Below are positions 7,592 through 27,890 of a DNA stretch of 64,000 nucleotides, in pieces; position 1 is the first letter of the stretch; every line of letters starts with the position of its first letter. The notes below the pieces were generated by a model. It worked only from the letters and a program-made list of their open reading frames with translations, had not been told where the DNA came from and did not search any database. Source of the stretch: Paracoccaceae bacterium (GTDB taxonomy: Bacteria > Pseudomonadota > Alphaproteobacteria > Rhodobacterales > Rhodobacteraceae); NCBI GenBank assembly GCA_024304985.1, contig JAMWZC010000002.1:372001-436000 (forward strand). The letters run 5' to 3'. The position numbers were made by a program, and so were the translations under genes.

Positions 7592-7642
7592 GAGGGCAAT
7601 CTTCCTGAAGTCGTGCCGGACCGGAAGGTGCCAGCAAGTCAA

Positions 7643-7846: not shown

Positions 7847-7911
7847 CAAACCCCTCCTGCGCTAAACTGTCGCGGTATCTTTCGATACAAGCCAACATGC
7901 AGGAGGGACAG

Positions 7912-8346
7912 ATGTCTGCAAAATTCATCGTCGGCTATGATGGGAGCGAGGCCTCTCGACGGGCGCTCGACTTTGCCGTGGGCCGGGTCAAGCTTCAGGG
8001 CGGCACGGTTGTTCTGGTCCATGTGCTGGAATGGTCGCCCTATTCGTTCCTGAGTCCAAGCGAACTGGAAGAACGCCACAAGCGTCGCACCGAGGAACTG
8101 GAGCGAGCCGAGAAAGCGCTGGTCGCACCTGTGCTTGAAAAGGTCCGCGCCGATGGCGTCGAGGCGGAAAGCAAGATCCGCTATGGCCATATCGCCGAGA
8201 CGATCTGCAAGATCGCCGAAGAAATGGGCGCAGTGCAGATCGTGATCGGACGCAACGGTCACACCCGACTTGGCAGCCGGATCTTCGGATCGGTGGCAGG
8301 TCATCTGGCGCAGGCAGCCCCGGTGCCCTGCACCATCGTTCCATGA
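7912..8346 (+). CDS. Universal stress protein (ATP-binding UspA-like)
   Basis: A 144-residue single-domain Usp, probably a cytosolic ATP-binding stress or signalling protein. It begins [16 protein letters not shown] and ends with the nucleotide-binding pattern G-x2-G-x9-G-S ([15 protein letters not shown]), followed by the PVPCTIVP strand typical of the family. The start at 7912 has an excellent AGGAGGGA site; a longer open frame upstream has none. It is 19 bp ahead of the symporter gene and almost certainly cotranscribed with it, so it may tune or be linked to that transporter. Confidence 0.93.
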
Positions 8347-8365
8347 GCAGCAACAGGAGAGACAG

Positions 8366-9919: not shown

Positions 9920-9953
9920 GCGTCCGTATATAACGCAGGTTCGGTCAAGAGTG

Positions 9954-9984
9954 GAAAAGGCCAGAGCATTGCTCTGGCCTTTTC
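9954..9984. terminator. Bidirectional intrinsic terminator
   Basis: AAAAGGCCAGAGC pairs perfectly with GCTCTGGCCTTTT around a 3-nt loop (ATT), giving A and T tracts on both sides. It separates the convergent AGCS and aminotransferase genes. Confidence 0.9.
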
Positions 9985-10010
9985 GTGGTTCTCGCGTTGG
10001 GTCGGACCGC

Positions 10011-11363: not shown

Positions 11364-11391
11364 GGGGGAGCCTCCGAGTCGCGGGTGTGTC

Positions 11392-11432
11392 GAATTTGAT
11401 CAAATTCTGTCACTGCGCGCAGATACTGTCCA
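11392..11432 (-). promoter_or_regulatory. Candidate promoter with overlapping palindromic operator for the aminotransferase gene
   Basis: On the minus strand TGGACA (11432-11427) and CAGAAT (11409-11404) are 17 bp apart. The perfect 16-bp palindrome GAATTTGATCAAATTC (11392-11407) covers the -10 box, as expected for a repressor site. The TTGATC core recurs near 15522 and 16562 in the same locus. Confidence 0.5.
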
Positions 11433-11445
11433 GTGGCGCGTGATC

Positions 11446-12297
11446 TCAGGACTTGCGCTGAAAGGCGATCATCACCAGTGCCAGCAGGCTGGACCCCAGC
11501 ATCAACAGCAAGGACACCGCATTGAGCAGTGGTGTTGAGCCCAGTTTCAGCCGGTCGAACATGGCGATGGTCAGGGGTGAATCCGAACCGACAAGCATCA
11601 GGGTGGTGTTGAAATTCTCGAAACTCATCAAGAAGGACACGACGAAAGCACCGATCATCGCCGGGGCCAGATAGGGCAATGTGATCGTGCGCACGGCAGT
11701 CAGGTGGTTCGCGCCAAGATTCAACGCAGCCTCCTCCAGCGTGCGGTCAAACTTTTGCAGGCGCGCGGCGATAACCAATGTGGCGATGGTCGTGACGAAT
11801 GAAAACTGCCCAAGGATCACCAGCACCAGACCGGGTCTCAGCGCCTGAATGTCGAATTCGGCCGCGTCCCATGCCGCATTTGCCAGCGTGCTGGAAAAGA
11901 CAAGGATCGAGATGCCCAGAACGATGCCCGGGATCACCAGCGGCAGCAGCATCAGCACGTAAAGCAACCCTCGCCCCCGGAACTGATACCGGTTGAAGAG
12001 AAACGCATTGGTCGTGCCCACCGCAACCGACAAAGCCGATACCGCCAGACCGATGATGACGGACGTGCCGATGGCGCGCAGGATCGGGCCTTCGTGAAAG
12101 ACACCGATCATCGGACGCTCGGACCCGAAGAACCAGTCAAGGGTGAAGCCCTCCCATGGCAGGGACGGGAACTGGCTGTCGTTGAAAGCGAAGACCGCCA
12201 CCACCGTCAAGGGCAGCGCCAGATAGATGAAGAACAGCGCAACATAGGCCCCATAGGCGATGCGGATCAGCGGGTTCTGCGGGATTGTCGGGATCAT
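11446..12297 (-). CDS. ABC transporter permease, PotC-like
   Basis: Second inner-membrane subunit of a polyamine/opine/iron-type ABC importer (binding-protein-dependent permease family). The 283-residue product has six hydrophobic segments and the EAA loop EEAALNLGANHLTAVRTI around 190, which docks the ATPase. AAGGAAGGTGG precedes the ATG. It lies 13 bp after the first permease gene in the order D-A-B-C, as in potABCD-like loci. The actual substrate is unknown; an amine is suggested by the aminotransferase downstream. Confidence 0.9.
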   Translation of the reverse strand: MIPTIPQNPLIRIAYGAYVALFFIYLALPLTVVAVFAFNDSQFPSLPWEGFTLDWFFGSERPMIGVFHEGPILRAIGTSVIIGLAVSALSVAVGTTNAFLFNRYQFRGRGLLYVLMLLPLVIPGIVLGISILVFSSTLANAAWDAAEFDIQALRPGLVLVILGQFSFVTTIATLVIAARLQKFDRTLEEAALNLGANHLTAVRTITLPYLAPAMIGAFVVSFLMSFENFNTTLMLVGSDSPLTIAMFDRLKLGSTPLLNAVSLLLMLGSSLLALVMIAFQRKS

Positions 12298-12310
12298 TCT
12301 GCCACCTTCC

Positions 12311-13168
12311 TTACCCCATTGTCTTTTCCAGGGTCTGTCCGGTCAGGCGCAGCACGGCCCAGACGATCAGCGATGACAGGATCAGAAGCATGAAACCGAA
12401 AGCGGCACCCAGCTCCCAGTTGAAGCGGACGATGAACTGCGAATAGATCATCTGCGTGAACCACAAGCTGTCCTTGCCGCCCAGCATGGTAGGGGTCAGG
12501 TAATTGCCCAAGGACAGCATGAAGACCACGATACTGCCCGAGACGATCCCCGGCATGGCATGGGGAATGACGATTTCGCGCAGGATGCTGGGGCCGGACC
12601 CGCCCAGATCATAGCCCGCCTCGATCACGGCATCGTCCAGACTGTCCAGCGTCGTGACAAGTGGCACGACCATGAACAGCATCGAGGTATAGACCAGCCC
12701 CACCATCATCGCGGCGTCGTTATACAGCATTTCGACCGGCCCCGCCGCCAGCCCCGCCCATTGCAACAAGCCCGAGATGACGCCGCTTTCCCGCAGCAGG
12801 ATCATCCAGCCAAAGGTGCGGACCAATTCTGACACCCAGAACGGCACCAGACACATCAGGAACAGCACGGAGCGCGCGCGCCCCCGTGCCATCTTGGCGA
12901 TGTAGTAGGACACCGGAAAGGCGATCAGCAAAGTCAGAACAGTCGCAAGGATCGACATCATCGCGGTGCGCGCGAAGGTCACCATGTAAAGCGGCTCGGT
13001 CAGGATCGTCGTGTAGTTTGCAAGGCCGGTTTCATACTGCCGCACGCCGACACGTTCACGTAGCGACAGCAGGAACAGGTCGATATGCGGGATGATGATC
13101 AGCAGCGACAGCCAGAGCAAGAGCGGCGTGAGCAACAGGATCAGCCCGAGTTTCTGTCCCGCGCGCAT
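12311..13168 (-). CDS. ABC transporter permease, PotB-like
   Basis: First inner-membrane subunit of the Pot-type importer, 285 residues. After an N-terminal helix (LGLILLLTPLLLWLSLLIII) it has five more membrane segments. The EAA-type loop is DAVIEAGYDLGGSGPSIL near 190, a good match to the PotB/HisM permease motif. The gene starts 3 bp after the ATPase stop codon, so translation is coupled. It pairs with the PotC-like subunit to form the heterodimeric channel. Confidence 0.9.
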   Translation of the reverse strand: MRAGQKLGLILLLTPLLLWLSLLIIIPHIDLFLLSLRERVGVRQYETGLANYTTILTEPLYMVTFARTAMMSILATVLTLLIAFPVSYYIAKMARGRARSVLFLMCLVPFWVSELVRTFGWMILLRESGVISGLLQWAGLAAGPVEMLYNDAAMMVGLVYTSMLFMVVPLVTTLDSLDDAVIEAGYDLGGSGPSILREIVIPHAMPGIVSGSIVVFMLSLGNYLTPTMLGGKDSLWFTQMIYSQFIVRFNWELGAAFGFMLLILSSLIVWAVLRLTGQTLEKTMG

Positions 13169-13171
13169 CGC

Positions 13172-14278
13172 CTATGGCCTCGCCACAGCAAAGGCGTTGC
13201 CCTGATCCCCGGACCAGCCGATATGCACACCCGCGCCGCGTGTCAGATGGGCGAATTCGCCTGATTGCGGCAGGGCCACTTCGATCTCGGCCCCTGTGGC
13301 ATCCATCACGATCACGCGGCTGGCTGCCCCGTTGAACAGGATCGTCGCGACATGGCCACTGATCTGGGTGTCGAAATGGGACAACTGCGCGGAATCCTCG
13401 GCCAGCCGGATCGCCTCGGGGCGGACAAAGACCTCGGCCCGGTCTCCGACAGGCAACTTACGGCCGGGGCTGATGGCCCGCAGGATCAGGCCGCCGTCTG
13501 TCTTCACCTCAAGGGCCTCTCCCTCGGCCCGGGTCACGCGGCCCTGCCAGCGGTTGGCATCGCCCACGAAGCCTGCCACGAAGGCGGTCTGGGGGCGGTA
13601 GTAAAGGTCACGCGCCGTGCCCATCTGCTCGAACCGGCCCGCATTCATTACGGCGATCCTGTCAGACATGACAAGGGCCTCGGACTGGTCATGGGTGATG
13701 TAGACAAAGGTGGTATCAAAGGCCGCCTGCAGCGCCTTCAACTCGACCTTCATATGTTCACGCAGCTTCAGGTCCAGTGCGCCCAAAGGTTCGTCCAGCA
13801 GCAGCACGTCAGGTTCCAGCACCATGCAGCGGGCAATGGCGACGCGCTGTTTTTGCCCTCCCGACAACTCATCCACCTGCCGCGCACCGATACCGGGCAA
13901 GCCGATCCGATCAAGTGCTTCGTCCACCTTGCGGGCAATCTCGGCCTTGGCCATGCCCTTGCGGCGCAGGCCATAACCGATGTTGTCGGCGATGTTCATC
14001 ATCGGGAACAGGGCCAGATGCTGAAACACCATGTTCACCGGGCGCTTGTTAGGCGGCACGTCCAGAACGGAGCGTCCCTTGATCCGGATATCGCCGCTGC
14101 TGGGTTCAAGAAAACCTGCGATCATCCGCATGATCGTGGTCTTGCCACAACCTGAGGGTCCAAGGATCGAAAAGAACGAGCCCGCAGGCACGGTGAAGGA
14201 CACGTTATCCACCGCCGTTGCAGACCCGAAGCGTTTTGTCAGCGCATCACATTCCAGATCGGGCATCGGCGTGGTCAT
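13172..14278 (-). CDS. ABC transporter ATP-binding protein, PotA-like
   Basis: ATPase of the Pot-type importer, 368 residues. The N-terminal ABC domain has Walker A GPSGCGKTT (near 40), signature LSGGQKQR, Walker B VLLLDEPLGALD and H-loop THDQSEAL. Residues from about 240 form the C-terminal TOBE-type regulatory domain usual for PotA/FbpC/UgpC proteins. An alternative start lies 4 codons in. Upstream, between it and the receptor gene, is a hairpin (14313-14341) that should reduce ATPase and permease transcripts relative to receptor. Confidence 0.92.
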   Translation of the reverse strand: MTTPMPDLECDALTKRFGSATAVDNVSFTVPAGSFFSILGPSGCGKTTIMRMIAGFLEPSSGDIRIKGRSVLDVPPNKRPVNMVFQHLALFPMMNIADNIGYGLRRKGMAKAEIARKVDEALDRIGLPGIGARQVDELSGGQKQRVAIARCMVLEPDVLLLDEPLGALDLKLREHMKVELKALQAAFDTTFVYITHDQSEALVMSDRIAVMNAGRFEQMGTARDLYYRPQTAFVAGFVGDANRWQGRVTRAEGEALEVKTDGGLILRAISPGRKLPVGDRAEVFVRPEAIRLAEDSAQLSHFDTQISGHVATILFNGAASRVIVMDATGAEIEVALPQSGEFAHLTRGAGVHIGWSGDQGNAFAVARP

Positions 14279-14312
14279 GCAAGGCTTTCCAGGCTTCTCG
14301 GTTCAAAAGCAA

Positions 14313-14341
14313 AGGCGGCACCTGCACAGCGCAGGTGCCGC
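14313..14341 (-). terminator. Intra-operon hairpin (attenuator) after the receptor gene
   Basis: GGCGGCACCTGC pairs over 12 bp with GCAGGTGCCGCC around a 5-nt loop. On the minus strand it is followed by a broken T tract (TTTGCTTTT). Placed between receptor and ATPase genes, it probably stabilises or partly terminates the receptor transcript. Confidence 0.75.
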
Positions 14342-14357
14342 CCGTTGTGTCAGTGGG

Positions 14358-15428
14358 TCAGCGCGCGGCCTGCACGCGGTCGAGCACGGCACCTTCCAGC
14401 GCCTCAAGACCTGCGGGAACCGGCGGATACCACTTGATATTGTCGACGGCTTCCTGCGGGAAGCTGGCCTGATACTTGGCTTTCAGCGCATCCGAGACGA
14501 ATTCATCCGCGCCTTTCGAGGCGGTGAAGTTGCCAGCGGATTCGGTGATCATCGCCGCGATTTCCGGCTTCATCACGAAGTTGATCCAGGCATAAGCGGC
14601 GTCATCCGCCTGACCCTTGGCAGGGATCACGAAAGTGTCGATCCAGCCCAGCGCACCAGAGGTGGGCGCTACGAAGGTCACATCGGGGTTGTCCTCGTTC
14701 AGCTTCCAGCCGCCGGTATCCCATGCCATCGCGGCCACAACCTCGCCCGAGCGGACCAGACCCATCAGCTCATCGCCGCCGGACCAGTAGGTCTTGACGT
14801 TGGGCTTGCAGGCGATCAGCGCCTCTTCGACCTTGGACAGGATCTCGGTATAGGCGGCCTCGTCGGCATAGGCGGCGAAGGGGTCCATCCCCATCGAGAA
14901 TGCAAAGCCGATCAGCGTGGGACGGCGCATCCGGTAGGACACCTTGCCCGCGACGGCATCACTGCAAAGATCTGTGTAATCCTTGACATCGGCAGCCTGC
15001 GCCGTGTTCAGCACCAGACCATCAGTGCCCCAGACATGCGGGACGCCGTAAACATCGCCTCCGACTGTGGTATTGGCCTTGGTCGCTTCCAGCATCGAGG
15101 GGATGAACAGAGCGGCGTCGATCTTGGACAGATCCATCGGCTTGTAGATGCCAAACTCCTCCTGCGGGCCGGCGATGCGGTCCTGGCTGGGTTGGGCCAG
15201 ATCGAACCCGCCGCCACCGGTTGCGCGCAACTTGGCGATCATTTCCTCATTGTTCGATGTGGTCACTTCGACAGTGTGGCCAGTTTCGGCCTCGAACATC
15301 TCGATGACATTCTCGGGGGCGTAGCCGCCCCATGTCAGCAGGCGCAGCGTATCGGCACTGGCAGGTGCGGCCAAGCCAAGGGCCAGCGCCGACGCGGTAA
15401 GTTTCAACGTAAAGGCAGAGGTTTTCAT
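14358..15428 (-). CDS. ABC transporter substrate-binding protein, PotD-like
   Basis: Periplasmic receptor of the Pot-type importer, 356 residues from the chosen start. It has a Sec signal (MKTSAFTLKLTASALALGLA, ending near ASA) and then DTLRLLTWGGYAPENVIEMFEAE, typical of the PotD/spermidine-putrescine-binding family. Later features are SYRMRRPTLIGFAFSMGMDPFAAY and AMAWDTGGWKLNED. The start at 15428 replaces a 34-codon upstream extension that lacks a ribosome binding site. It is the first gene of the leftward operon. Upstream AT-rich DNA (about 15520-15550) carries TTGATCA-type half sites. The ligand is likely an amine or amino acid derivative but is not identified. Confidence 0.88.
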   Translation of the reverse strand: MKTSAFTLKLTASALALGLAAPASADTLRLLTWGGYAPENVIEMFEAETGHTVEVTTSNNEEMIAKLRATGGGGFDLAQPSQDRIAGPQEEFGIYKPMDLSKIDAALFIPSMLEATKANTTVGGDVYGVPHVWGTDGLVLNTAQAADVKDYTDLCSDAVAGKVSYRMRRPTLIGFAFSMGMDPFAAYADEAAYTEILSKVEEALIACKPNVKTYWSGGDELMGLVRSGEVVAAMAWDTGGWKLNEDNPDVTFVAPTSGALGWIDTFVIPAKGQADDAAYAWINFVMKPEIAAMITESAGNFTASKGADEFVSDALKAKYQASFPQEAVDNIKWYPPVPAGLEALEGAVLDRVQAAR

Positions 15429-15586
15429 GATGTATCCCTGTGTTGGAGAACGGATGTACCGACGGCGACCAATCACACCAGTGAAACAGTTTTGCGAAAC
15501 CAAGCCCGCTGTCTGTTCCTTTTTGATCATTTGATAAAATCAAGATATTCGCTTGGGTCCAAAGTCAACATTTTCGCGCATCGCCC

Positions 15587-16459
15587 TCATGTGAACTTGC
15601 GGAACAGGCGGGTGCGGTCGAACATCCCCTCAAGATCCTGCATCCGGGCGCGGGTGCTGTTCCAGGTGCGTTCCTGCACCTCGGCGACCAGCGCCTCGGC
15701 CATCAGCATCAGGGTCACCAGACTGTCCCACGCGCTGGGCACGACGATCCGGCCGCAGAAGGTGCAGTCGGCAAACTCATGCACGGGAGAGCGCCACTGA
15801 TCCGTGAGCAGGATGATCCGCGCGCCCCTGTCACGGGCCAGTTCCGCCAGTTTCAGCGTGCTGTTCTCATATCGGCGGACATCGAAAATCACGACGACAT
15901 CGCCTGCCCTGAGGTCAAGGAGGTCATGGGCCCATGTGCTTGACATCGCATGGACATGGGTCACGCCCGCGCGCAAGACCTGCATGTGCAGGAACAGATA
16001 TTCGGCAAGAGCATGCGTAATCCGCCCGCCTGCGACAAAAACCCTGCGGTCCGGATCGGCCAGCAGGACGCAGGCCCGCTCGAAGGTATCAAGGTCGATC
16101 TGGGTCAGGCTCTGGTGGATATTTCCGATCACCGCATCCGTAAAACGATTGAGGATATGGCCCTCGGGGGCGGAATGCACCCATGTGTCTCGTTTCGTGA
16201 TCGGGTCGGAAATGCGCGCCTCAAGTTCGCCTCGCAGGGCGGACTGGAATTCGGGAAAACCGGAAAACCCAAGTTTCTGCACCATCCGCACGACTGTCGG
16301 GGTCGACACATCCGCCGCCTTGGCCAGATGCGTGATCGAGGCAAGACCGGTCACAGGATAGTTCTGCAGCAAGGTATCGGCCAGTTGCCGCTCGGCCCGC
16401 GTCAGCGTGTCGAAGGCCGTTTGCAGCCGTTCGGCGATGGTCTGGCTTTCATCGGTCAA
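15587..16459 (-). CDS. RpiR/MurR-type transcriptional regulator
   Basis: Dimeric DNA-binding regulator with an N-terminal HTH (about 20-75, with ITHLAKAADVSTPTVVRMVQKLGFSGFPEF) and a C-terminal SIS domain (about 115-260). SIS domains usually bind phosphosugars, although RpiR members also control amino-acid and amine genes. It lies between the receptor gene (same strand) and the divergent TRAP operon, so it is the obvious local regulator of both arms. The TTG start at 16459 is preferred because AAAAAGGAT lies upstream. A GTG at 16492 would add 11 residues but has no binding site. The start remains uncertain; the family is clear. Confidence 0.85.
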   Translation of the reverse strand: MTDESQTIAERLQTAFDTLTRAERQLADTLLQNYPVTGLASITHLAKAADVSTPTVVRMVQKLGFSGFPEFQSALRGELEARISDPITKRDTWVHSAPEGHILNRFTDAVIGNIHQSLTQIDLDTFERACVLLADPDRRVFVAGGRITHALAEYLFLHMQVLRAGVTHVHAMSSTWAHDLLDLRAGDVVVIFDVRRYENSTLKLAELARDRGARIILLTDQWRSPVHEFADCTFCGRIVVPSAWDSLVTLMLMAEALVAEVQERTWNSTRARMQDLEGMFDRTRLFRKFT

Positions 16460-16506
16460 GGCTTGGCGATCCTTTTTGTTCAATATATGCACAGAACGAT
16501 TCGGGG

Positions 16507-16567
16507 TGAAGAAAATCTTTCAGAAACATCGTTGACAGGTCGGGGGGGCTTGGATCACGCTTGATCC
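16507..16567. promoter_or_regulatory. Candidate operators between regulator and TRAP operon
   Basis: Two inverted repeats lie in the divergent gap. GAAAATCTTTC (16511-16521) is flanked by TGAA and CAGAAAC. GGATCACGCTTGATCC (16552-16567) has 6-bp arms and a 4-bp spacer. Either could be an RpiR binding site. Confidence 0.4.
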
Positions 16568-16637
16568 ATAGGGGGCCTGCCATGCTGTTTTTGCCGGATC
16601 AACCAGATGTCACGAACCGCGCCGTCAGGCAGGCGTC

Positions 16638-17234
16638 ATGCACCCGGTGATGCGTGGCTACATCCGGATCGTTGATGCAATCAACTACCGGTTGGGGCGG
16701 TTGGTGATGTATGGCATCTTCGTCATGGTGGCGATCCTGCTTTGGTCGTCGGTGTCCAAGACCTTCTTCACACCCTCCCTGATGACGCTGGAAATGGCGC
16801 AATTCGCCATGGTGGCCTATTACATGCTGGGCGGGCCTTATGCGTTGCAGATGGGCGCAAATGTGCGGATGGACCTATTCTATCATACATGGAGCGACAC
16901 CCGAAAAGCGTGGTTTGACGCCTTTACCGTTTTGTTCCTGCTGTTCTTCCTGGGTGTATTGCTTTGGGGTGCATTGAGTTCGACGGCCTATTCGCTGGGT
17001 TACTTCGGGCGTGAGCCGCTGACCTTCTATGGCGAATTGATCAGGGCCTTTCTGACCGGCGGGCCAAATGGCGCCTCCGAGGTGCTGGGCCGGTTCGAGC
17101 GCAGCCCGACGGCATGGCGCCCTTACATGTGGCCGATCAAGGTGCTGATGACGCTGGGCATCTTCCTGATGCTGCTTCAGGCTATCTCGGAGTTCTTCAA
17201 GGACGTGCTGCGTCTGCGTGGCGAGGTGGTGTGA
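16638..17234 (+). CDS. dctQ: TRAP transporter small permease (DctQ)
   Basis: Small membrane subunit of a tripartite ATP-independent periplasmic transporter, 198 residues with four hydrophobic segments (about 22-45, 60-80, 100-125, 165-185). The segment MGANVRMDLFYH near 75 is the usual DctQ landmark (G-x-H/N-V-R-x-D). It is longer than typical DctQ because of an extra loop (about 130-160). The ATG at 16650 is a possible later start; the ribosome binding site is weak for both. Its stop overlaps the dctM start (TGATG). Confidence 0.9.
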   Translation: MHPVMRGYIRIVDAINYRLGRLVMYGIFVMVAILLWSSVSKTFFTPSLMTLEMAQFAMVAYYMLGGPYALQMGANVRMDLFYHTWSDTRKAWFDAFTVLFLLFFLGVLLWGALSSTAYSLGYFGREPLTFYGELIRAFLTGGPNGASEVLGRFERSPTAWRPYMWPIKVLMTLGIFLMLLQAISEFFKDVLRLRGEVV

Positions 17235-18556
17235 TGTCCTACGACATGATCGCCATCTTCATGTTCTCGCTGATGATGCTGATGCTGTTCACTGGCCAGC
17301 GCGTCTTTGCTGCCATCGGTGGTGTGGCGGCGGTGTCTGCCATGATGCTCTGGGGCACGGGCGGGGCGGAAATCCCCTTTTCGGCAGCGATGAAACTGAT
17401 GAAATGGTATCCGCTGCTGACGCTGCCGATGTTCATTTTCATGGGCTACATACTGTCGGAAAGCAAACTGGCCGATGATCTCTACAGGATGTTTCATGTC
17501 TGGATGGGGCCGGTGTCGGGTGGTCTGGCGATCGGCACGATCGGGTTGATGGTGCTGGTCTCGGCGATGAACGGCCTGAGCGTTGCAGGCATGGCAATAG
17601 GAGCCACCATCGCGCTGCCCGAACTGCTGCGGCGTGGCTATGACAAGCAAATGGTCACGGGTGTCATTCAAGCGGGGTCCAGCCTTGGTATCCTTGTGCC
17701 GCCTTCGGTCGTTCTGGTGCTTTACGCAATGATCGCGCGGCAGCCGGTGGGTCAGTTGTGGCTGGCAGGCGTGGTGCCGGGGCTGATGATGGCGGGGATG
17801 TTCATTCTGTACATCTATATCCGCTGTCGATTGAATCCGACCTTGGGCCCGGTCCTGCCCATTGAGGAGCGGAATGTCTCACGCGCAGAAAAGCTGCGCC
17901 TTCTCAGCGCGGGCCTGCTGCCGCTGGTGATCTTTGCTGCGATGATGGTGCCTTTTGTGAACGGCTGGACAAGCCTTGTCGAAAGCTCGGCCATCGGGGC
18001 CATGACTGCCTTCTTCGCGGCTGTCCTCAAGGGCCGCATGACACGAGCGGTTTTTGAAACCTCGGTCCGCCAGACCTTGATGATCTCCTGCATGTTCATG
18101 TGGATCATTCTGGCGGCTCTGGGATTTGGCGCGATCTTTGACGGGCTGGGTGCGGTGCGGGCCATCGACACGCTGTTCACCGACCGGCTTGGCCTGAACC
18201 CTTGGGTCATCCTGATCTTGATGCAGCTTTCGTTTCTGCTGATGGGGACCTTTCTGGACGATACCGCAATGCTAGTGATCGTGGCGCCCCTTTATGTCCC
18301 GCTGGTGGGCGCATTGGGCTTTGACCTGATCTGGTATGGGATCCTTTACACGATCACCACGCAGATTGCTTATATGACGCCGCCTTTCGGCTATAATCTG
18401 TTCTTGATGCGGGCCATGGCCCCACCCGAGATCACGTTGCGCGATATATACGCGTCGATCCTGCCGTTCGTATTGGTGATGTTGTGTGCGCTGGCCCTGA
18501 TCATGATCTTCCCGCAGATCGCGCTCTGGCTGCCCGAATTGGTTTACGGAAAATGA
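17234..18556 (+). CDS. dctM: TRAP transporter large permease (DctM)
   Basis: Large membrane subunit of the TRAP transporter, which uses an ion gradient for solute uptake. The 440-residue product has 11-12 hydrophobic segments. It carries the family features MFIFMGYILSESKLADDLY (near 65) and IQAGSSLGILVPPSVVLVLYA (near 150), plus LNPWVILILMQLSFLLMGTFLDD towards the end. The start at 17234 overlaps the dctQ stop; the frame is open further upstream only by chance. A 66-bp gap separates it from the receptor gene. Confidence 0.93.
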   Translation: MSYDMIAIFMFSLMMLMLFTGQRVFAAIGGVAAVSAMMLWGTGGAEIPFSAAMKLMKWYPLLTLPMFIFMGYILSESKLADDLYRMFHVWMGPVSGGLAIGTIGLMVLVSAMNGLSVAGMAIGATIALPELLRRGYDKQMVTGVIQAGSSLGILVPPSVVLVLYAMIARQPVGQLWLAGVVPGLMMAGMFILYIYIRCRLNPTLGPVLPIEERNVSRAEKLRLLSAGLLPLVIFAAMMVPFVNGWTSLVESSAIGAMTAFFAAVLKGRMTRAVFETSVRQTLMISCMFMWIILAALGFGAIFDGLGAVRAIDTLFTDRLGLNPWVILILMQLSFLLMGTFLDDTAMLVIVAPLYVPLVGALGFDLIWYGILYTITTQIAYMTPPFGYNLFLMRAMAPPEITLRDIYASILPFVLVMLCALALIMIFPQIALWLPELVYGK

Positions 18557-18622
18557 CCTCCGCAAGGAGCAACAAAAAGGCAAGAACCGCCCTTTGAACC
18601 AAAAGCAACAGGAGAGAATGAA

Positions 18623-19654
18623 ATGACAACAAGACGCAAATTCCTGACCACAGCCGCATTGGCAGGCCCCGCCGCACTGGCCACGCCCGCTATTGCGCAA
18701 AGCACCATTCGCTGGCGTATGCAAACCTATGCCGGTGCCGCGCTGGGCGAGCATGTGATCAAGCCTGCCGTGGACATGTTCAACAAGATCGCCGGCGACA
18801 AGATGCAGATCGAGCTGTTCTATGCCGATCAGATCGTTCCGACCGGAGAACTGTTTCAGGCGCTTCAACGCGGCACGCTGGACGCAGTGCAGTCGGATGA
18901 CGACTCCATGGCCTCGCCGACCGAAGTCACGGTGTTCGGCGGCTATTTCCCTTTCGCCTCGCGCTACTCTCTCGACGTGCCGGTGTTGTTTAACCAGTAT
19001 GGCCTGAACGAGATCTGGGACGCTGAATATTCCGCCGTCGGCGTGAAGCACATCAGCGCTGGCGCCTGGGATCCCTGCCATTTCGCCACCAAGGACCCGA
19101 TCAACAGTCTCGCCGATCTGCAAGGCAAGCGCGTGTTCACCTTCCCGACGGCTGGACGTTTCCTTGCGCAATTCGGCGTCGTCCCCGTCACCCTGCCTTG
19201 GGAAGATATCGAGGTCGCGGTCCAGACCGGCGAGCTGGATGGGATCGCTTGGTCGGGCATCACCGAGGATTATACGGTCGGCTGGGCTGATGTGACCAAC
19301 TACTTCCTGACCAACAACATCTCGGGCGCATGGGCTGGATCGTTCTTTGCCAATATGGATCGCTGGAACGAATTGCCCGAGGACATGCAGACCTTGTTCC
19401 GCGTCTGCTGCGATCAGTCGCACTACTATCGCCAGTGGTGGTATTGGGGCGGCGAGGCGAACCTGCGCGTCAACGGCACCAAACTCCAACTGACCAGCAT
19501 CCCTGACGAAGAATGGAAAACCGTCGAAGATGCTGCGCTGGTCTTCTGGGACGAAATCGCATCGGAATCTGAGGTCAAAGCCAAGGTGGTCGAGATCTTC
19601 AAGAAGTATAATGCCGACATGCAGAAGGCCGGACGGCCCTATCGCTACACCTGA
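18623..19654 (+). CDS. dctP: TRAP transporter substrate-binding protein (DctP)
   Basis: Periplasmic receptor of the TRAP transporter, 343 residues, with a twin-arginine signal (TTRRKFLTTAALAG, cleavage after AIAQ near 26). LADLQGKRVFTFPTAGRFL around 165 matches the region where DctP proteins use Arg to bind an organic carboxylate. The Trp/Tyr-rich segment HYYRQWWYWGGEANL near 275 resembles the TakP-type (2-keto acid) receptor group. AGGAGAG lies upstream of the ATG. TRAP receptors normally need a carboxylate on the ligand. The solute is therefore probably an acid, unlike the ligand expected for the Pot-like importer. Confidence 0.9.
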   Translation: MTTRRKFLTTAALAGPAALATPAIAQSTIRWRMQTYAGAALGEHVIKPAVDMFNKIAGDKMQIELFYADQIVPTGELFQALQRGTLDAVQSDDDSMASPTEVTVFGGYFPFASRYSLDVPVLFNQYGLNEIWDAEYSAVGVKHISAGAWDPCHFATKDPINSLADLQGKRVFTFPTAGRFLAQFGVVPVTLPWEDIEVAVQTGELDGIAWSGITEDYTVGWADVTNYFLTNNISGAWAGSFFANMDRWNELPEDMQTLFRVCCDQSHYYRQWWYWGGEANLRVNGTKLQLTSIPDEEWKTVEDAALVFWDEIASESEVKAKVVEIFKKYNADMQKAGRPYRYT

Positions 19655-19766: not shown

Positions 19767-21131
19767 ATGGCCGGATTGATGACATTCGAGGCCCTGAAAT
19801 CCGCTGTTGCTGCGGGGACTGTGGATACGGTTCTGGCCTGCATCGTGGATATGCAAGGCCGCCTGCAGGGCAAGCGTTTCGTGGCGCAGCATTTCATCGA
19901 CAGCGCGTGGGAAGAAACTCATTGCTGCAATTACCTGCTGGCGACCGATATAGCCATGGCCACGCCCGATGGCTATGCCGCGACCAGCTGGCAAAAGGGC
20001 TATGGCGATTACATGATGAAGCCTGACCTTGGCACGATCCGTCCGCTGCCTTGGCTCGAGGGGACGGTCATGGTGATGTGCGATGTGATGGATCATCACG
20101 GCCATCATGAAATCGCCCATTCCCCCCGCGCGATGCTGAAGAAGCAGATCCAACGTGTCGAGGCGCTGGGCCTGACACCGATCATGGCGACCGAGTTGGA
20201 GTTCTTCCTGTTCGCGCGCTCCTTCAAGCAGATCGCCGCTTCTGGATTCCGTGATCTGGAGCCGATCAGCAACTATAATGAGGATTACAACATCCTCCAG
20301 ACCACGCGAGAGGAGCACGTGATGCGTCCTCTGCGCAATCACCTCTACGCCGCAGGGATCCCGGTCGAGAATTCCAAGGGCGAGGCTGAGGCCGGGCAGG
20401 AAGAGCTGAACATCCGCTATGCGCCCGCGCTGGACACCGCCGATCACCATACGATTGCCAAGCACGCAGCCAAGGAAATCGCCGACCAACACGGGCATGC
20501 CGCCAGCTTCTTGCCGAAATGGCATCAGGACCGTGTCGGCAGTTCGTCTCATGTCCACCAGTCCTTATGGAAGGACGGCGCGAATGCGTTTTTTGATCCG
20601 GATGCCGAACACGGCATGTCCGATCTCATGCGGAAATACATGGCCGGGCTGATCCGCTACGCCCCCGATATGACCGTGTTCATGGCCCCCTATATCAACA
20701 GCTACAAACGCTTCTCCAAAGCCACCTTCGCGCCGACCAAGACGGTCTGGTCCGTGGACAATCGCACGGCCGGGTTCCGCCTGTGTGGTGAAGGCAGCAA
20801 GGCGATCCGCGTGGAGTGCCGCATTCCCGGCTCTGATATGAACCCCTATGTCGCCATGGCCGCGATGCTGGCTGCCGGTCTGGCCGGGATAGAAGAAGGG
20901 CTGGAGTTGCAGCGCCCCACCACGGGTGACATCTATCAAGCGGCACAAGGCGGCGAGATCCCCAGGACCCTGCGCGATGCGGTGGATACGCTGCGCCACT
21001 CCAAAATGCTGCGGGCCGCGATGGGCGATGACGTGATCGACCATTACACCCGCGCCGCCCTGTGGGAGATCGAGGAGTTCGACCGCGTGGTGACCGACTA
21101 TGAAATTGCCCGTGGCTTCGAGCGGGCCTGA
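19767..21131 (+). CDS. Glutamine synthetase family gamma-glutamyl-amine ligase
   Basis: ATP-dependent ligase of the GlnA/PuuA/GlnT superfamily, predicted to join glutamate to an amine as the entry step of a gamma-glutamyl pathway. The 454-residue product has the metal-binding segment TELEFFLFA (near 145), the ELNIRYAP region (near 215), FLPKWHQDRVGSSSHVHQSL (near 250) and the substrate Arg segment NRTAGFRLCG (near 332). It lacks the Tyr-adenylation region of housekeeping GlnA, and its neighbours are not nitrogen-regulation genes. AGGGAGG lies before the ATG. It is followed after 6 bp by the aldehyde dehydrogenase gene. The amine could be a polyamine, a monoamine or an amino alcohol. Confidence 0.85.
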   Translation: MAGLMTFEALKSAVAAGTVDTVLACIVDMQGRLQGKRFVAQHFIDSAWEETHCCNYLLATDIAMATPDGYAATSWQKGYGDYMMKPDLGTIRPLPWLEGTVMVMCDVMDHHGHHEIAHSPRAMLKKQIQRVEALGLTPIMATELEFFLFARSFKQIAASGFRDLEPISNYNEDYNILQTTREEHVMRPLRNHLYAAGIPVENSKGEAEAGQEELNIRYAPALDTADHHTIAKHAAKEIADQHGHAASFLPKWHQDRVGSSSHVHQSLWKDGANAFFDPDAEHGMSDLMRKYMAGLIRYAPDMTVFMAPYINSYKRFSKATFAPTKTVWSVDNRTAGFRLCGEGSKAIRVECRIPGSDMNPYVAMAAMLAAGLAGIEEGLELQRPTTGDIYQAAQGGEIPRTLRDAVDTLRHSKMLRAAMGDDVIDHYTRAALWEIEEFDRVVTDYEIARGFERA

Positions 21132-21137
21132 CTGGAA

Positions 21138-22520
21138 ATGACCAAGATGATCAGATGTATCTCGCCGATTGATGGATCGGTTTATCTCGAGCGTCCCGCT
21201 TTGTCGCTGGACGCCGCACAAGCCGCCGCGGCGCGCGCGCGCGCCGCGCAGAAGGGATGGGCCGCGCGCCCCTTGGCCGAACGCATCGCGCTGGTCCTCA
21301 AGGCCGTCGAGCATGTGGGTGCCATGAACGATGTGATCGTGCCGGAACTGGCGCATCAGATGGGTCGCCCCATCCGCTATGGCGGCGAATTCCGCGGCTT
21401 CAACGAACGCGCGCAGTATATGGCCGAAATCGCGCAAACCGCCCTCGCCCCCATCGTTCTGGAAGACAGCGCCGCCTTCAAACGCCACATCACGCGCGAG
21501 GCGCATGGCGTTGTTCTGGTCATCGCGCCGTGGAACTACCCTTACATGACCGCCATCAACACCGTCGCCCCCGCCCTGATCGCGGGCAATACGGTGGTGC
21601 TCAAACACGCAAGCCAAACCCTCAAGGTCGGTGAGCGTATGGCCGAGGCGTTTCATGCCGCTGGCATCCCTGAGGAAGTATTCCAGAACGTCGTGCTGGA
21701 TCACGATACGACGTCCGCACTGATTGCGGCGCGTGCCTTTGATTTCGTGAACTTCACCGGATCGGTCGCCGGTGGCCGCGCCATTGAACGCGCCGCGGCG
21801 GGCACCTTTACCGGGCTGGGGCTGGAACTGGGCGGCAAAGACCCCGGCTATGTCATGGAAGACGCCGATCTGGACGCCGCCGTCGATACGCTGATGGATG
21901 CGGCGATGTTCAACTCGGGGCAGTGCTGCTGCGGGATAGAACGCATCTATGTGCATGAGAGCCTGTTTGACGCTTTCGTGGAAAAATCAGTTGCGCTGGT
22001 ATCCGGCTACAAGCTGGGCAATCCGCTTGATCCCGAAACCACGCTTGGCCCGATGGCGCAGGTGCGGTTCGCCGATCTGGTGCGGGCGCAAACCGCCGAG
22101 GCTGTCGCCGCAGGCGCGAAAGCCCTGATCGACCCCACGCTTTTCCCGCAGGATGGCGGCGCTTACCTGATGCCGCAAATCCTGATCAACGTTGATCATT
22201 CCATGCGTGTGATGCGAGAGGAAAGCTTTGGTCCCGTCGTCGGGATCATGCCGGTGAAGGACGATGCCGAGGCGCTGCGCCTGATGAATGACAGCGATTA
22301 TGGCCTGACAGCTTCCCTCTGGACCGCTGATGTGGATCGCGCCGAACGCCTTGGCGCACAGATCGAAACCGGCACGGTCTTTCTGAACCGCGCCGATTAT
22401 CTGGACCCCGGCCTGTGCTGGACCGGATGCAAGGACACCGGACGCGGCGGCGGGCTGTCGGTGATCGGCTATCACAACCTGACCCGTCCGAAATCCTACC
22501 ACCTGAGGAAACAGCAATGA
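21138..22520 (+). CDS. NAD(P)-dependent aldehyde dehydrogenase
   Basis: Oxidises an aldehyde intermediate to the acid. The 460-residue product has the NAD-binding PWNYPYMTAINTVAPALIAGN (131-151), general base Glu230 in LELGGKDPG, and a catalytic Cys in GQCCCG (Cys264 by the GQxC pattern; three Cys in a row). In context it would oxidise a gamma-glutamylated or free amino aldehyde made by the aminotransferase or the alcohol dehydrogenase. It begins 6 bp after the ligase gene and overlaps the next gene by 4 bp, so the three enzymes are one translational unit. Confidence 0.92.
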   Translation: MTKMIRCISPIDGSVYLERPALSLDAAQAAAARARAAQKGWAARPLAERIALVLKAVEHVGAMNDVIVPELAHQMGRPIRYGGEFRGFNERAQYMAEIAQTALAPIVLEDSAAFKRHITREAHGVVLVIAPWNYPYMTAINTVAPALIAGNTVVLKHASQTLKVGERMAEAFHAAGIPEEVFQNVVLDHDTTSALIAARAFDFVNFTGSVAGGRAIERAAAGTFTGLGLELGGKDPGYVMEDADLDAAVDTLMDAAMFNSGQCCCGIERIYVHESLFDAFVEKSVALVSGYKLGNPLDPETTLGPMAQVRFADLVRAQTAEAVAAGAKALIDPTLFPQDGGAYLMPQILINVDHSMRVMREESFGPVVGIMPVKDDAEALRLMNDSDYGLTASLWTADVDRAERLGAQIETGTVFLNRADYLDPGLCWTGCKDTGRGGGLSVIGYHNLTRPKSYHLRKQQ

Positions 22521-23662
22521 CCCTGCGCGCCAACTGGTCCTATCCCACCGCCATCCGTTTCGGGGCGGGCCGCATCTCTGAACTGGCCGAGGCTTGTGCT
22601 GCGGCAGGTATCCGCAAACCCCTGCTGGTGACCGACAAGGGGCTGGCCAGCCTGCCCATCACCGCAGCCACGCTGGATCTGATGCAGGCCGCCGGACTGG
22701 GCCGTGCCCTGTTCGCCGATGTCGATCCAAACCCGACCGAGATCAACTTGGCCGCCGGTGTAGCTGCCTACAAGGCGGGCGGGCATGACGGGGTGGTCGC
22801 TTTCGGCGGCGGCTCGGGCCTTGATCTGGGCAAGGCGGTGGCCTTCATGGCGGGCCAGACCCGGCCCGTCTGGGATTACGAGGATATCGGCGACTGGTGG
22901 ACCCGCGCCGATTCATCGGCCATCGCGCCCATCGTGGCAGTGCCGACCACCGCGGGAACAGGGTCCGAGGTGGGCCGCGCATCCGTCCTGACCAATTCGG
23001 TCACGCATGAGAAGAAGATCATCTTTCACCCGAAGATCCTGCCATCCGTGGTGATCTGCGATCCTGAACTGACCGTGGGCATGCCAAAGGCGATCACTGC
23101 GGGCACCGGGATGGATGCCTTCGCCCATTGTCTTGAGGCCTATTGCTCGCCGCATTTCCACCCTATGAGCCAAGGAATTGCGCTGGAAGGGATGCGGTTG
23201 GTCAAGGAATATCTCCCGCGCGCCTATGCTGATGGCACCGATATAGAGGCCCGCGGCCAGATGATGGCGGCAGCAGCGATGGGGGCCGTTGCGTTCCAAA
23301 AGGGCTTGGGCGCGATCCACGCGATCAGCCACCCGATCGGGGCGGTGCATAACACGCATCACGGCACCACGAATGCGGTGGTGATGCAGCCCGTTCTGCG
23401 CTTCAACCGCGCGGCGATCGAGGAGCGGATTGAGCAGGCTGCAGCTTACTTGGGCATTTCAGGCGGGTTCGACGGCTTCTATGCCTTTGTGGGTGCCTTG
23501 AATGCAAAGCTTGGGATCCCCGCCAACCTGACCGCCCTTGGCGTCACGAACCCTGACTTGGCGGCATTGACAGCCTCGGCCCTGCAAGACCCCAGCACGG
23601 GCGGCAATCCGGTCGAAATGACAGCCGAGAACACGCGGGCCTTGCTGGAAGCGTGCCTCTGA
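22517..23662 (+). CDS. Iron-containing (type III) alcohol dehydrogenase
   Basis: NAD-dependent alcohol dehydrogenase of the Fe-ADH family, 381 residues. The nucleotide loop is GGGSGLDLGK (97-106). Predicted metal ligands are Asp200, His204, His268 and His282, all present (MDAFAHCLEAY, GAIHAISHPIG, NTHHGTTN), so it should be active. It overlaps the aldehyde dehydrogenase gene by ATGA and ends at the terminator 23673-23705. Polyamine gamma-glutamyl pathways do not normally need such an enzyme. Its presence suggests a hydroxylated substrate (for example an amino alcohol) or reduction of a semialdehyde. Confidence 0.92.
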   Translation: MTLRANWSYPTAIRFGAGRISELAEACAAAGIRKPLLVTDKGLASLPITAATLDLMQAAGLGRALFADVDPNPTEINLAAGVAAYKAGGHDGVVAFGGGSGLDLGKAVAFMAGQTRPVWDYEDIGDWWTRADSSAIAPIVAVPTTAGTGSEVGRASVLTNSVTHEKKIIFHPKILPSVVICDPELTVGMPKAITAGTGMDAFAHCLEAYCSPHFHPMSQGIALEGMRLVKEYLPRAYADGTDIEARGQMMAAAAMGAVAFQKGLGAIHAISHPIGAVHNTHHGTTNAVVMQPVLRFNRAAIEERIEQAAAYLGISGGFDGFYAFVGALNAKLGIPANLTALGVTNPDLAALTASALQDPSTGGNPVEMTAENTRALLEACL

Positions 23663-23710: not shown

Positions 23711-25060
23711 TCAGTCGATCTCTTCCGGTAGAACCAGATTGAGGATGATCGACAAACCTGCAGCAGGCAGCAGCCCCGATGTCAGCAGGATCTGAAGTGT
23801 TTTCGGCAGATGTTGCAGCGCGGTTGGCTCCAGCTGCAGGCCCAGACCCACCGACAGCGACACAGCAAAGATCACCATGTTCCGGCGGTTCCAGCTGACA
23901 TCCGACAGCATGTTCACACCTGCCGCACAGACCATGCCAAACATGACGATCACACCGCCGCCCAGCACGTTGATCGGCACGGTCGATACAATGGCCCCGA
24001 ACTTGGGCACCAGACCGCAGACGATCAGGAAGATCGCGCCGATGGTCACGACATGGCGACTCATCACGCCGGTCATGCTGATCAGACCCACGTTCTGGCT
24101 GAAGGACGTGTTGGGCAACCCGCCAAAGATGCCGGCCACGGCTGTGCCCACGCCGTCGGCATAGGTGGCACCCGTGATCTCGCGGTCCGTCGCTTCGCGC
24201 CCCGCGCCGCCCTTGCAGATACCCGATACATCGCCCACGGTTTCAATGGCAGAGATCACCGCCATGAAACACATGCCGATAATAATGGCGATGTTGAACT
24301 CGATGCCCCATCTGAAGGGCGTCGGCAATTCGAACATACCCGCGCGGGCCACGTTGCCGAAGCTTACCTGCCCCATGAGATAGGCAACCACATAGCCCGC
24401 GATCAGGCCGATCAGCACGGCTGCGACCGACATCATCCCGCGCGTGAAGAACTTGAGCGCAAGGGTGACCACGATGACCACCAGCGCAGGCGTCCACATC
24501 GCCAATGATCCGAATTCAGGCTTGCCCATCAAGGGCACACCGCCCGCCGCATATTGAATGCCTACCTTGACCAGCGCCAGACCGATCATCAGCACGATCA
24601 ATCCTGTCACCAGCGGCGGCAGGGCAAAACGAAGCTTGCCTATGAAGGTGCCCAGAAAGACATGGAACAGCCCGCCGATGGCAACACCTGTCATCAGCCC
24701 GGCCAGCCCCGCGGTACCCTGCCCTGCAACGGCCGGGATCATCACGGGCAAGAAGGCGAAGGACGTGCCCTGCACGATGGGCAAACGCGCGCCGACGGGG
24801 CTGAAACCGATGGTCTGGAACAGCGTGGCGATGCCTGCGAACAGCATGGACATCTGGATCATGTAGATCATGTTCGGGAAATCGGGCGAGTTCGAGCCAA
24901 AGCCAAATCCTGCCGCACCCGCCACGATGATGGCAGGCGTCACGTTTGATACGAACATGGCCAGCACATGCTGGATGCCCAGTGGCACGGCCTTGGCAAG
25001 GGCCGGAGTATAATTTGGGTCGCGCAATTGGTCGGGCGTACCCAGCGAGGTGTCAGCCAT
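23711..25060 (-). CDS. NCS2 family purine permease (probable urate/xanthine transporter)
   Basis: Inner-membrane nucleobase:cation symporter, 449 residues with 12-14 hydrophobic segments. The family core is visible: ETVGDVSGIC near 270, then IFGGLPNTSFSQNVGLISMTGV near 315, containing the QNVG motif of purine members (UapA/XanQ/UacT). The downstream and upstream genes break down urate products, so urate is the likeliest substrate. Xanthine is possible. It is the last gene of the leftward purine operon, 57 bp after allA. Confidence 0.9.
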   Translation of the reverse strand: MADTSLGTPDQLRDPNYTPALAKAVPLGIQHVLAMFVSNVTPAIIVAGAAGFGFGSNSPDFPNMIYMIQMSMLFAGIATLFQTIGFSPVGARLPIVQGTSFAFLPVMIPAVAGQGTAGLAGLMTGVAIGGLFHVFLGTFIGKLRFALPPLVTGLIVLMIGLALVKVGIQYAAGGVPLMGKPEFGSLAMWTPALVVIVVTLALKFFTRGMMSVAAVLIGLIAGYVVAYLMGQVSFGNVARAGMFELPTPFRWGIEFNIAIIIGMCFMAVISAIETVGDVSGICKGGAGREATDREITGATYADGVGTAVAGIFGGLPNTSFSQNVGLISMTGVMSRHVVTIGAIFLIVCGLVPKFGAIVSTVPINVLGGGVIVMFGMVCAAGVNMLSDVSWNRRNMVIFAVSLSVGLGLQLEPTALQHLPKTLQILLTSGLLPAAGLSIILNLVLPEEID

Positions 25061-25117
25061 CCCTGAAGTCTCCTTGTTGATATGATGGGGTGAGCCCTCT
25101 TGGCGGGGCCTTGCGGT

Positions 25118-25606
25118 TCAGCGCGTGATGATGCGGGGCACCTCAAGCGGGAATTCCTGTAGGTTCGGCGTGGCGCCGATCCGGTCGATGACGGCAAAAA
25201 GGCCAGGGGCCTGCAGCGGTGTCAGCACACCGTGCCACGTGCCGCGATGCAGGTTGACGCCCTGACCGGGAGCCGCGATGAAAGCCGTGATCCGGCCGGG
25301 CTGGCCTGCGTCATCTTCGGCCACGATCACCAGCCAATCGGTCATGCTCATCGGAATGAAGGCTTGCGATCCGTCGGGATGCCGCTCCAGCAGATCAAGC
25401 GTGTAGGGCAGGCTGCGCGGTTCCGCCTTGAAAACACTGATGCCAGCGCGCCCCTCGGGGCCAAAATCAAGCTGCGCGCGGTCGTGCCAACGGCCGCAGA
25501 AGCCCTGATTGATCATCTTGTCCGCTTGCCCCTCCGCCTCAAGCACATCGCCATAGGGTGCGAAATCCTGTGCCGTCAAAGGGCGGGCCGTGATCGTGGT
25601 CTGCAT
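25118..25606 (-). CDS. allA: Ureidoglycolate lyase
   Basis: Splits ureidoglycolate into glyoxylate and urea, the last step of this purine route. The 162-residue product is family-sized. It contains FAPYGDVLE, a KMINQGFCGRWHD segment, ISVFKAEPRSLPYTLDLLERHPDGSQAFIP split by the cupin fold, and GVNLHRGTWHGVLTPL with the conserved His residues. AGGAGGT lies just before the chosen ATG; the frame is open for 56 codons upstream without such a site. It lies 62 bp after the ureidoglycine aminohydrolase gene, the preceding enzyme in the pathway. Confidence 0.93.
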   Translation of the reverse strand: MQTTITARPLTAQDFAPYGDVLEAEGQADKMINQGFCGRWHDRAQLDFGPEGRAGISVFKAEPRSLPYTLDLLERHPDGSQAFIPMSMTDWLVIVAEDDAGQPGRITAFIAAPGQGVNLHRGTWHGVLTPLQAPGLFAVIDRIGATPNLQEFPLEVPRIITR

Positions 25607-25625
25607 CGGAACCTCCTGTGACGGT

Positions 25626-25662
25626 GCGCGGGCGGAATTTGAGTATTTGAAGAACAGTGAAG
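25626..25662. repeat. Possible degenerate copy of the dispersed element
   Basis: GCGGAATTTGAGTATTTGAA followed by GAACAGTGAAG lies at the 3' end of the aminohydrolase gene. It shares the GC block, ATTTG and purine-rich AAGAA end with the other copies but lacks GGGGATATTT. Low confidence. Confidence 0.25.
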
Positions 25663-25668
25663 CGGCGG

Positions 25669-26481
25669 TCAGAGCGTCAGGGACACGTGGCGGTTCACAT
25701 CCTTGTAGAGAAGGTAGCGGAAATCCTCGGTCCCCGTGGCGACGCAGGCCTGCGGGCAAAAGGCGCGCAGCCACATGAAATCGCCGGGGCCGACCTCGAC
25801 CCAGTCGGTGTTCAGCAGGTAGCGCGCGGTACCTTGCAGCACATACAGCCCGTGTTCCATGACATGGGTTTCAGCGAAGGGGATCAGCCCGCCGGGTTTG
25901 AAGGTCACGATATTCATATGCATGTCGTGGCGCAGGTCGTTGGGTTCGACAAAGCGGGTGGTGCCCCATTTGTCCGTGTTGGGCATCCAGTTGACCGGGG
26001 TTTGCTGATCCGAGGTCACGAAGGCCGTCGGATGGTCGATCCCCGTTGCCGCGACATAACGTTTTCGGATCCAGTGGAACTGAAGCGGCACATCGCCGGG
26101 ATTTGCCAAGGACCATTTGCTGCCTGCCGGGATATAGGCGTAGCCACCGGCCGACATGTCATGGTTTGCCCCGTCGATGGTCAGGCGCATCTGGCCGCTG
26201 GCAACAAGGATCGTGCCTTGCGCGCCGCGATCAGGTTCGGGTGTGTCACTGCCACCGCCCGGAGCCACCTCAACCGCATACTGCGCGAAGGTTTCGGCAA
26301 ACCCAGACAGCGGGCGCGCGATGATCCAGGCGCGGGTGTCAGACCAGCCGGGCAAAAGGCTCGCGGTGATGTCGCGCATCGTATTGGCCGGGATGAAAGC
26401 ATAGGCGGTGGTGAAAACGGCCTTGCCGTCGGGCATCACATCCTGTCCGGGCAGGCCACCGGGGGGAAAGGCATAGGTCAC
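25669..26481 (-). CDS. (S)-ureidoglycine aminohydrolase
   Basis: Bicupin Mn enzyme that releases ammonia from (S)-ureidoglycine to give (S)-ureidoglycolate. The 270-residue length fits UGHase/YlbA. The C-terminal cupin shows the typical run: ETHVMEHGLYVLQGTARYLL, EVGPGDFMWLRAFCPQAC, then FRYLLYKDVNRHV. The His/Glu metal ligands are in the first of these segments. The 5' end overlaps the 3' end of the allantoinase fusion gene by 4 bp, and allA follows, so three consecutive or near-consecutive steps are cotranscribed. Confidence 0.93.
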   Translation of the reverse strand: MTYAFPPGGLPGQDVMPDGKAVFTTAYAFIPANTMRDITASLLPGWSDTRAWIIARPLSGFAETFAQYAVEVAPGGGSDTPEPDRGAQGTILVASGQMRLTIDGANHDMSAGGYAYIPAGSKWSLANPGDVPLQFHWIRKRYVAATGIDHPTAFVTSDQQTPVNWMPNTDKWGTTRFVEPNDLRHDMHMNIVTFKPGGLIPFAETHVMEHGLYVLQGTARYLLNTDWVEVGPGDFMWLRAFCPQACVATGTEDFRYLLYKDVNRHVSLTL

Positions 26482-27890
26482 AGCATATCCTCGAGTCTCA
26501 GGCGCGCGATCCGTTCGACCTGTGCGCAGGCGGTGGTGAATTCGGTGGCGCGGTCATTGTTCAGCCGCGTCTCAAAGGCGGCCAGGATGCTGGCCTTGGT
26601 GTTGTCGCGCACCGCGATGATGAAGGGAAACCCGTGCCGCGCGACATAGGCGGTGTTCAGTTCCGTGAAACGCGCGCGTTCGGCATCGGTCAAGGCGTCC
26701 AGCCCGGCGCTGGCCTGTTCGGCGGTGGACTCTGCTGTCAGTCGCTTCGCTGCGGCCAGTTTGCCCGCCAGATCGGGGTGTGCCGTCAAAACGCCAAGCC
26801 GCTCTGCCTCGGTGGCCGAGCGGAACATCCGCGCAAGCGCGTTGTGCAGACCCGCAGGAGTGTCATGGGCAGGCCCAAGTTCCAGTTCCCAGGCACGTTC
26901 GGCGATCCATGGCGAATGTTCGAAAATACCACCAAACTTGGCAACGAAATCTGCCTTTTCCATCTGGCTCGGACGAAGACGGCGCTGATGCGGATGGATT
27001 GCCGCCCAATGCCGGGCGATGTCGATGCGGCGCGGACACCAGACCCCGTCAAACTCTGCGATATAGTCGATAAAGCGTTTCAACCCTGCCAGCTTGCCCG
27101 GGCGTCCGATCAGGCGGCAGTGCAGTCCCACGGACATCATCGCAGGCCGGCCCTCAACACCCTCGGCATAAAGGGTATCAAAGGCATCCTTGAGGTAGTC
27201 GAAGAACTGCCCGCCTGTGATGTAGCCGGGGGCGGTGGCAAAACGCATATCATTGGCTTCCAGCGTATAGGGGATGATCAACTGGTCACGATCCCCGACC
27301 TCCAGCCAATAGGGCAGGTCGTCATCATAAGTGTCACTGATCCAGTCGAAGCCGCCTTCCTCAGCCACAAGCCGCACGGTATTGGCCGAACAGCGACCGG
27401 TATACCACCCGCGCGGGCGTTCGCCGACTACCTCGGTATGCAGGCGGATCGCCTCGGCAATCGCGGCGCGCTCCTGATCTTCGGGCATATCGCGGTGTTC
27501 GACCCATTTCAGCCCGTGGCTCGCGATTTCCCAGCCGGCAGACTTCATCGCCTCGACCTGTTCGGGGCTGCGCGCAAGGGCCGAAGCAACACCGTAGACG
27601 GTGACCGGAATCCCTGCCCCGGTGAACAGGCGATGAAGGCGCCAGAACCCGGCCCGCGCGCCATATTCATAGATCGATTCCATGTTCCAGTGCCGCATGC
27701 CGGGCCAGGGTGCTGCCCCCGCAATGTCGGAGAGAAAAGCCTCGGACGCCGCATCACCGTGAAGGATGGCATTCTCGCCCCCCTCTTCGTAATTCACCAC
27801 GAATTGAACGGCGACCTTCGCGCCGCCGGGCCATTGGGCCAGCGGCGGGTGCGCGCCGTATCCGATCATGTTGCGTGGGTAGCGGTTCAT
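26478..27890 (-). CDS. Bifunctional PuuE-type allantoinase / OHCU decarboxylase fusion
   Basis: Two purine enzymes in one 470-residue chain. Residues about 1-300 are a metal-independent allantoinase of the polysaccharide deacetylase fold (PuuE): [56 protein letters not shown]. Residues about 310-470 are OHCU decarboxylase (UraD): [17 protein letters not shown], the catalytic His in [12 protein letters not shown], and [18 protein letters not shown]. The C-terminal half acts before the N-terminal half: OHCU to (S)-allantoin, then allantoin to allantoate. The gene is divergent from uraH, which makes the UraD substrate. It heads the leftward purine operon. Confidence 0.93.

Follow-up and report, generated by a model that had tools for sequence, protein, structure and literature searches.

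The 64,000-nucleotide stretch of DNA analysed here (the window), from a marine Paracoccaceae bacterium, in all probability carries an eto operon, which would break down ethanolamine by a route that does not use ethanolamine ammonia-lyase and combines import by a TRAP transporter, ligation, two oxidations, RpiR control and an unlinked hydrolase. The gamma-glutamyl ethanolamine route has already been published and the pathway itself is not new; what we claim is modest, namely that the last step of this known pathway shows a gap at the level of the genus. The features of the locus are as follows.

15587-16492, minus strand: RpiR-type regulator (HTH_6 and SIS domains), divergent from the operon (Pfam; synteny)
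16493-16637, no strand: hydrolase-free gap of 145 bp between RpiR and DctQ, where relatives carry the gene for gamma-glutamylglycine amidohydrolase (GGAH), a protein of about 260 aa from the formylglutamate-amidohydrolase (FGase) family
16507-16522, no strand: predicted operator TGAAGAAAATCTTTCA, a 16-bp palindrome TGAA-N8-TTCA lying between the RpiR gene and the operon
16638-17234, plus strand: TRAP small permease (DctQ), EtoV-like (PF04290, 62 bits; synteny)
17234-18556, plus strand: TRAP large permease (DctM), EtoW-like (PF06808, 220 bits; synteny)
18623-19654, plus strand: TRAP solute-binding protein EtoX, ethanolamine-binding type (81% identity to 4uab/4xf5)
19767-21131, plus strand: glutamine synthetase (GS)-like ligase (Gln-synt_C, 333 bits)
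21138-22520, plus strand: aldehyde dehydrogenase, ALDH (PF00171, Aldedh, 393 bits; synteny)
22517-23662, plus strand: iron-type alcohol dehydrogenase, Fe-ADH (PF00465 and PF25137, 162 plus 144 bits; synteny)

The ligase starts at the ATG at 19767, with the ribosome-binding site AAGGGAGG ahead of it. Its stop codon, ending at 21131, is separated by 6 bp from the ALDH ATG at 21138, and the ALDH stop and ADH start overlap as ATGA (22517-22520), confirming the coordinates and spacing by which a reading made from the window's letters alone (the sequence-only reading) had linked these three genes. That reading was right about the three enzymes but left out the regulator and the TRAP transporter (15587-19654): ligase, ALDH and ADH are the last genes of a unit that also takes in the RpiR and TRAP genes upstream. 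The next gene after ADH encodes a xanthine permease on the opposite strand, which bounds the operon on this side; the permease and the apparent ureide/allantoin breakdown genes that follow it (23711-27890, minus strand) are kept beside the eto operon in the genus. The order RpiR-EtoVWX-ligase-ALDH-ADH is conserved across dozens of genomes (synteny), and in a scan of named genomes that yielded 80 loci it was found in nearly all of those that retain the transporter. At three loci (L027, L042 and L069) ADH follows the ligase, with no ALDH between them.

The RpiR gene likewise occupies the same position in nearly all relatives with a retained transporter. The palindrome TGAA-N8-TTCA, which is predicted to be the RpiR operator, occurs exactly in 26/62 regions upstream of RpiR as compared with 0.3 expected from shuffled sequences, a count in which related rows are not independent. 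On its other side, RpiR is abutted by genes for a polyamine-type ABC transporter (PotD/A/B/C-like; 11446-15530, minus strand), as it is at L007, L008, L010, L011 and L012. Genes for such a transporter also occur in L025, where they neighbour a solitary ligase gene, and downstream of ADH in four Maritalea loci, and this repeated association suggests a functional link.

The identity of the substrate is indicated by the transporter. In a search of solved structures, EtoX was 81% identical over 318 amino acids to the protein of entries 4uab and 4xf5 (E = 3e-189), with the next-best solved TRAP protein far behind (E = 1e-17). The second of these entries, 4xf5, presumably holds 2-amino-1-propanol, and that its ligand may differ from ethanolamine is a point against ethanolamine as the substrate. 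The protein itself is Csal_0678 of Chromohalobacter salexigens, which was solved with ethanolamine bound (PMC12410723, PMC4646407) and is an atypical TRAP protein lacking the carboxylate-binding arginine (PMC4646407). Alignment of EtoX to 4yzz places Phe172 at the position of this arginine in typical TRAP proteins, and Phe is the commonest substitution there (PMC4646407). Judged by its identity and this alignment, the window's EtoX is of the Csal_0678 type, with the TRAP arginine missing, and an adjoining transporter of the EtoX type argues for ethanolamine rather than putrescine as the substrate. Counting against the assignment, in two members of the genus (L009 and L019) ligase, ALDH and ADH are kept, the RpiR, TRAP and ABC genes are lost, and EtoX is absent from the whole genomes, so that the three enzymes may also serve without the transporter. 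At these two loci (about 6490-11893) a class-III aminotransferase gene, the counterpart of window 10011-11363, stands head to head with the ligase.

The ligase agrees with the ethanolamine assignment. The best solved relative of the ligase is 5dm3 (E = 4e-214, 714 bits, whole-length match), which we take to be from Chromohalobacter salexigens, the same organism as Csal_0678. The ligase falls below the NCBIfam cut-offs for GlnA and GlnIII (243 vs 429 and 239 vs 470 bits, respectively), as well as for GGputSyn (216 vs 650). A true GlnA is encoded elsewhere in the genome, and in an alignment with it Phe321 of the ligase replaces the GlnA flap Glu, and the loop of Asp50 and Ser53 that holds ammonium-site residues is missing. 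The sub-cut-off scores and the loss of ammonium-site features led us to reject a glutamine synthetase of type I or III; the protein is very likely an ethanolamine gamma-glutamylase. The catalytic Cys264 and Glu230 are present in ALDH, and the metal ligands Asp200, His204, His268 and His282 were located by motif in ADH. In NCBIfam, ADH scores best as a 4-hydroxybutyrate dehydrogenase and ALDH as semialdehyde dehydrogenases, all far below the curated cut-offs; by analogy, we infer that ADH is a gamma-glutamylethanolamide dehydrogenase and ALDH a gamma-glutamyl-acetaldehyde dehydrogenase.

In the pathway that we propose, EtoVWX would import ethanolamine, which the ligase would join to glutamate at the expense of ATP, yielding gamma-glutamylethanolamide. 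Fe-ADH would oxidize the alcohol of this compound to an aldehyde and ALDH the aldehyde to gamma-glutamylglycine, which a hydrolase encoded elsewhere would split into glutamate and glycine, with RpiR probably controlling the operon from the operator in the divergent promoter region. Gene identities and gene order come from the present analysis, whereas for the reactions, induction and growth we rely on published homologs. The proposal of the sequence-only reading, an amino alcohol that is gamma-glutamylated and then oxidized as alcohol and as aldehyde, matches the route for ethanolamine already described for Phaeobacter sp. MED193, C. salexigens and Streptomyces coelicolor (PMC10132767, PMC6529630).

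The enzyme of the last step is missing from its usual place. The amidohydrolase gene has been described at the position between RpiR and EtoV (PMC10132767), and in nearly all transporter-bearing loci an ORF of about 260 residues sits between RpiR and DctQ; all those tested (5/5) belonged to the FGase family (PF05013). The RpiR-DctQ gap measures about 150 bp in the window, L007 and L008, as compared with 867-1056 bp at the remaining loci that carry the two. We surveyed 101 genomes of graded kinship for the hydrolase and cross-tabulated it with the ligase and EtoX. Of the family's genomes beyond the genus, 20 had adjacent ligase and EtoX genes, and in all of them (20/20) the hydrolase lay within a few kilobases on that contig; in the window's genus it was found in 0/7 genomes, anywhere in the genome, at the search threshold used, several of these genomes being drafts (72-100% complete). 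That the genus as a whole lacks the gene is well supported, and this bears out the observation, made from the sequence alone, that the route calls for a hydrolase which the locus does not contain, its usual place being the 145-bp gap. The window's own genome contains no close copy of the dedicated hydrolase, the best match being a conserved paralog with 31% identity, and this lack too counts against the assignment of the operon to ethanolamine. In the ligase tree the window's clade (support 100/100) is nested among hydrolase-bearing relatives, so that the simplest reading would be that the genus lost its dedicated amidohydrolase. We tentatively suggest that, following a clean loss, the genus may use a different, unlinked hydrolase or keep gamma-glutamylglycine for another use.

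Several proteins could fill this gap. The genome encodes three FGase-family proteins, of which the nearest paralog (C10:118563, 31% identity) adjoins pyruvate kinase; it was rejected as a gain of the genus because a counterpart is also found in four hydrolase-positive relatives. HutG (C7), also rejected, belongs to the histidine cluster. A PuuD-like protein (C9:154592) was rejected as a genus-specific replacement, since it occurs in nearly all family genomes, with or without the hydrolase; a PuuD-like peptidase C26 protein kept in nearly the whole family (L174:5590-6363) lies two genes from a malate synthase G look-alike. About five GGT-family matches were detected in the genome, none tied to the operon. 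One is the GGT-like gene at the window's end (PF01019, 449 bits; ORF start near 62506), which runs off the window. The sequence-only reading had named this gene as a distant possibility, and the gene is real, but the hydrolase expected is of the formylglutamate-amidohydrolase family and not a GGT; as one of about five, and unlinked, it was rejected as the dedicated enzyme. The pyruvate-kinase-linked paralog, the PuuD-like protein and the several GGTs are thus candidates, and the evidence singles out none.

The shared loss could also mean that the operon of this genus is decaying or redirected, with no dedicated enzyme cleaving gamma-glutamylglycine and a changed role for the pathway. The absence of the hydrolase from 7/7 genus genomes is in line with this, as are the two members that also lack EtoX, RpiR and the ABC genes. 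We nevertheless consider it unlikely, because the frames of all seven remaining operon genes are intact, EtoX and the ligase are 98% and 93-96% identical, respectively, to those of genus relatives, and several hydrolases elsewhere in the genome could take over the last step.

Other alternatives concern the substrate. The same chemistry acting mainly on another short amino alcohol (2-amino-1-propanol or isopropanolamine) would yield gamma-glutamylalanine or a similar product, and the second entry of the 4uab protein, 4xf5, is compatible with this. L-alaninol, moreover, is an intermediate of a gamma-glutamyl route in isopropylamine breakdown. This reading appears distinctly improbable, given that no isopropylamine-specific genes lie near the operon, that the MED193 homolog of EtoX binds ethanolamine with a Kd of 7.9 uM, and that the MED193 operon responds to phosphorylethanolamine (PMC10132767). 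Least probable is a reading of the ligase as a glutamine synthetase or as an enzyme for polyamines, with dehydrogenases that act on an unrelated alcohol or semialdehyde, as the top family scores of ADH and ALDH and the polyamine-type ABC transporter adjoining the regulator might suggest. All those scores are far below the curated cut-offs, the ligase lacks the ammonium-site features of GlnA, and the closest solved relatives belong to an ethanolamine operon. In addition, the same genome has a separate Puu-like cluster (C1:674-680 kb; L106:10813-15728), with two PuuA-like ligases flanking a class-I glutamine amidotransferase, a DAO-family oxidase after them and an amino-acid-type ABC transporter before them. 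The Eut ethanolamine ammonia-lyase route was also discarded, as EutB (PF06751) had no match in the genome, which is 98% complete.

Ethanolamine derived from membrane lipids commonly serves as a source of nitrogen and carbon in the sea, and the eto route is widespread in marine alphaproteobacteria. To this route the window adds a genus whose last enzyme must lie elsewhere, making the cleavage of gamma-glutamylglycine a testable question.

Among known systems, the closest is the operon of Phaeobacter sp. MED193 (MED193_10021-10056), described by Westermann et al. in 2023 as encoding RpiR, GGAH, EtoV, EtoW, EtoX, ethanolamine gamma-glutamylase, gamma-glutamylacetaldehydeamide dehydrogenase and gamma-glutamylethanolamide dehydrogenase; its eto proteins increase during growth on phosphorylethanolamine, and the authors cite prior work on C. 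salexigens and Agrobacterium (PMC10132767). RpiR, EtoVWX, ligase, ALDH and ADH follow the same order in the window, but MED193 has an amidohydrolase (MED193_10026) between RpiR and EtoV that the window and its genus lack. C. salexigens shares the 81% likeness of EtoX (4uab, 4xf5) but is a gammaproteobacterium. In S. coelicolor, GlnA4 (SCO1613) makes gamma-glutamylethanolamide in vitro and later steps have been proposed, the last by the formylglutamate-amidohydrolase-family enzyme SCO1615 (Krysenko et al. 2019; PMC6529630). The chemistry proposed there is the same as in the window, whereas the regulator differs (EpuRI) and a TRAP transporter is not reported (PMC6529630). The Puu putrescine route of E. 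coli shares gamma-glutamylation followed by oxidation and ALDH, but employs the amine oxidase PuuB and the hydrolase PuuD where the window has an alcohol dehydrogenase; as the sequence-only reading had noted, no PuuB- or PuuD-type gene is found in the locus (ORFs, Pfam). Apart from the hydrolase gap, the window's operon is an ordinary instance of the known cluster.
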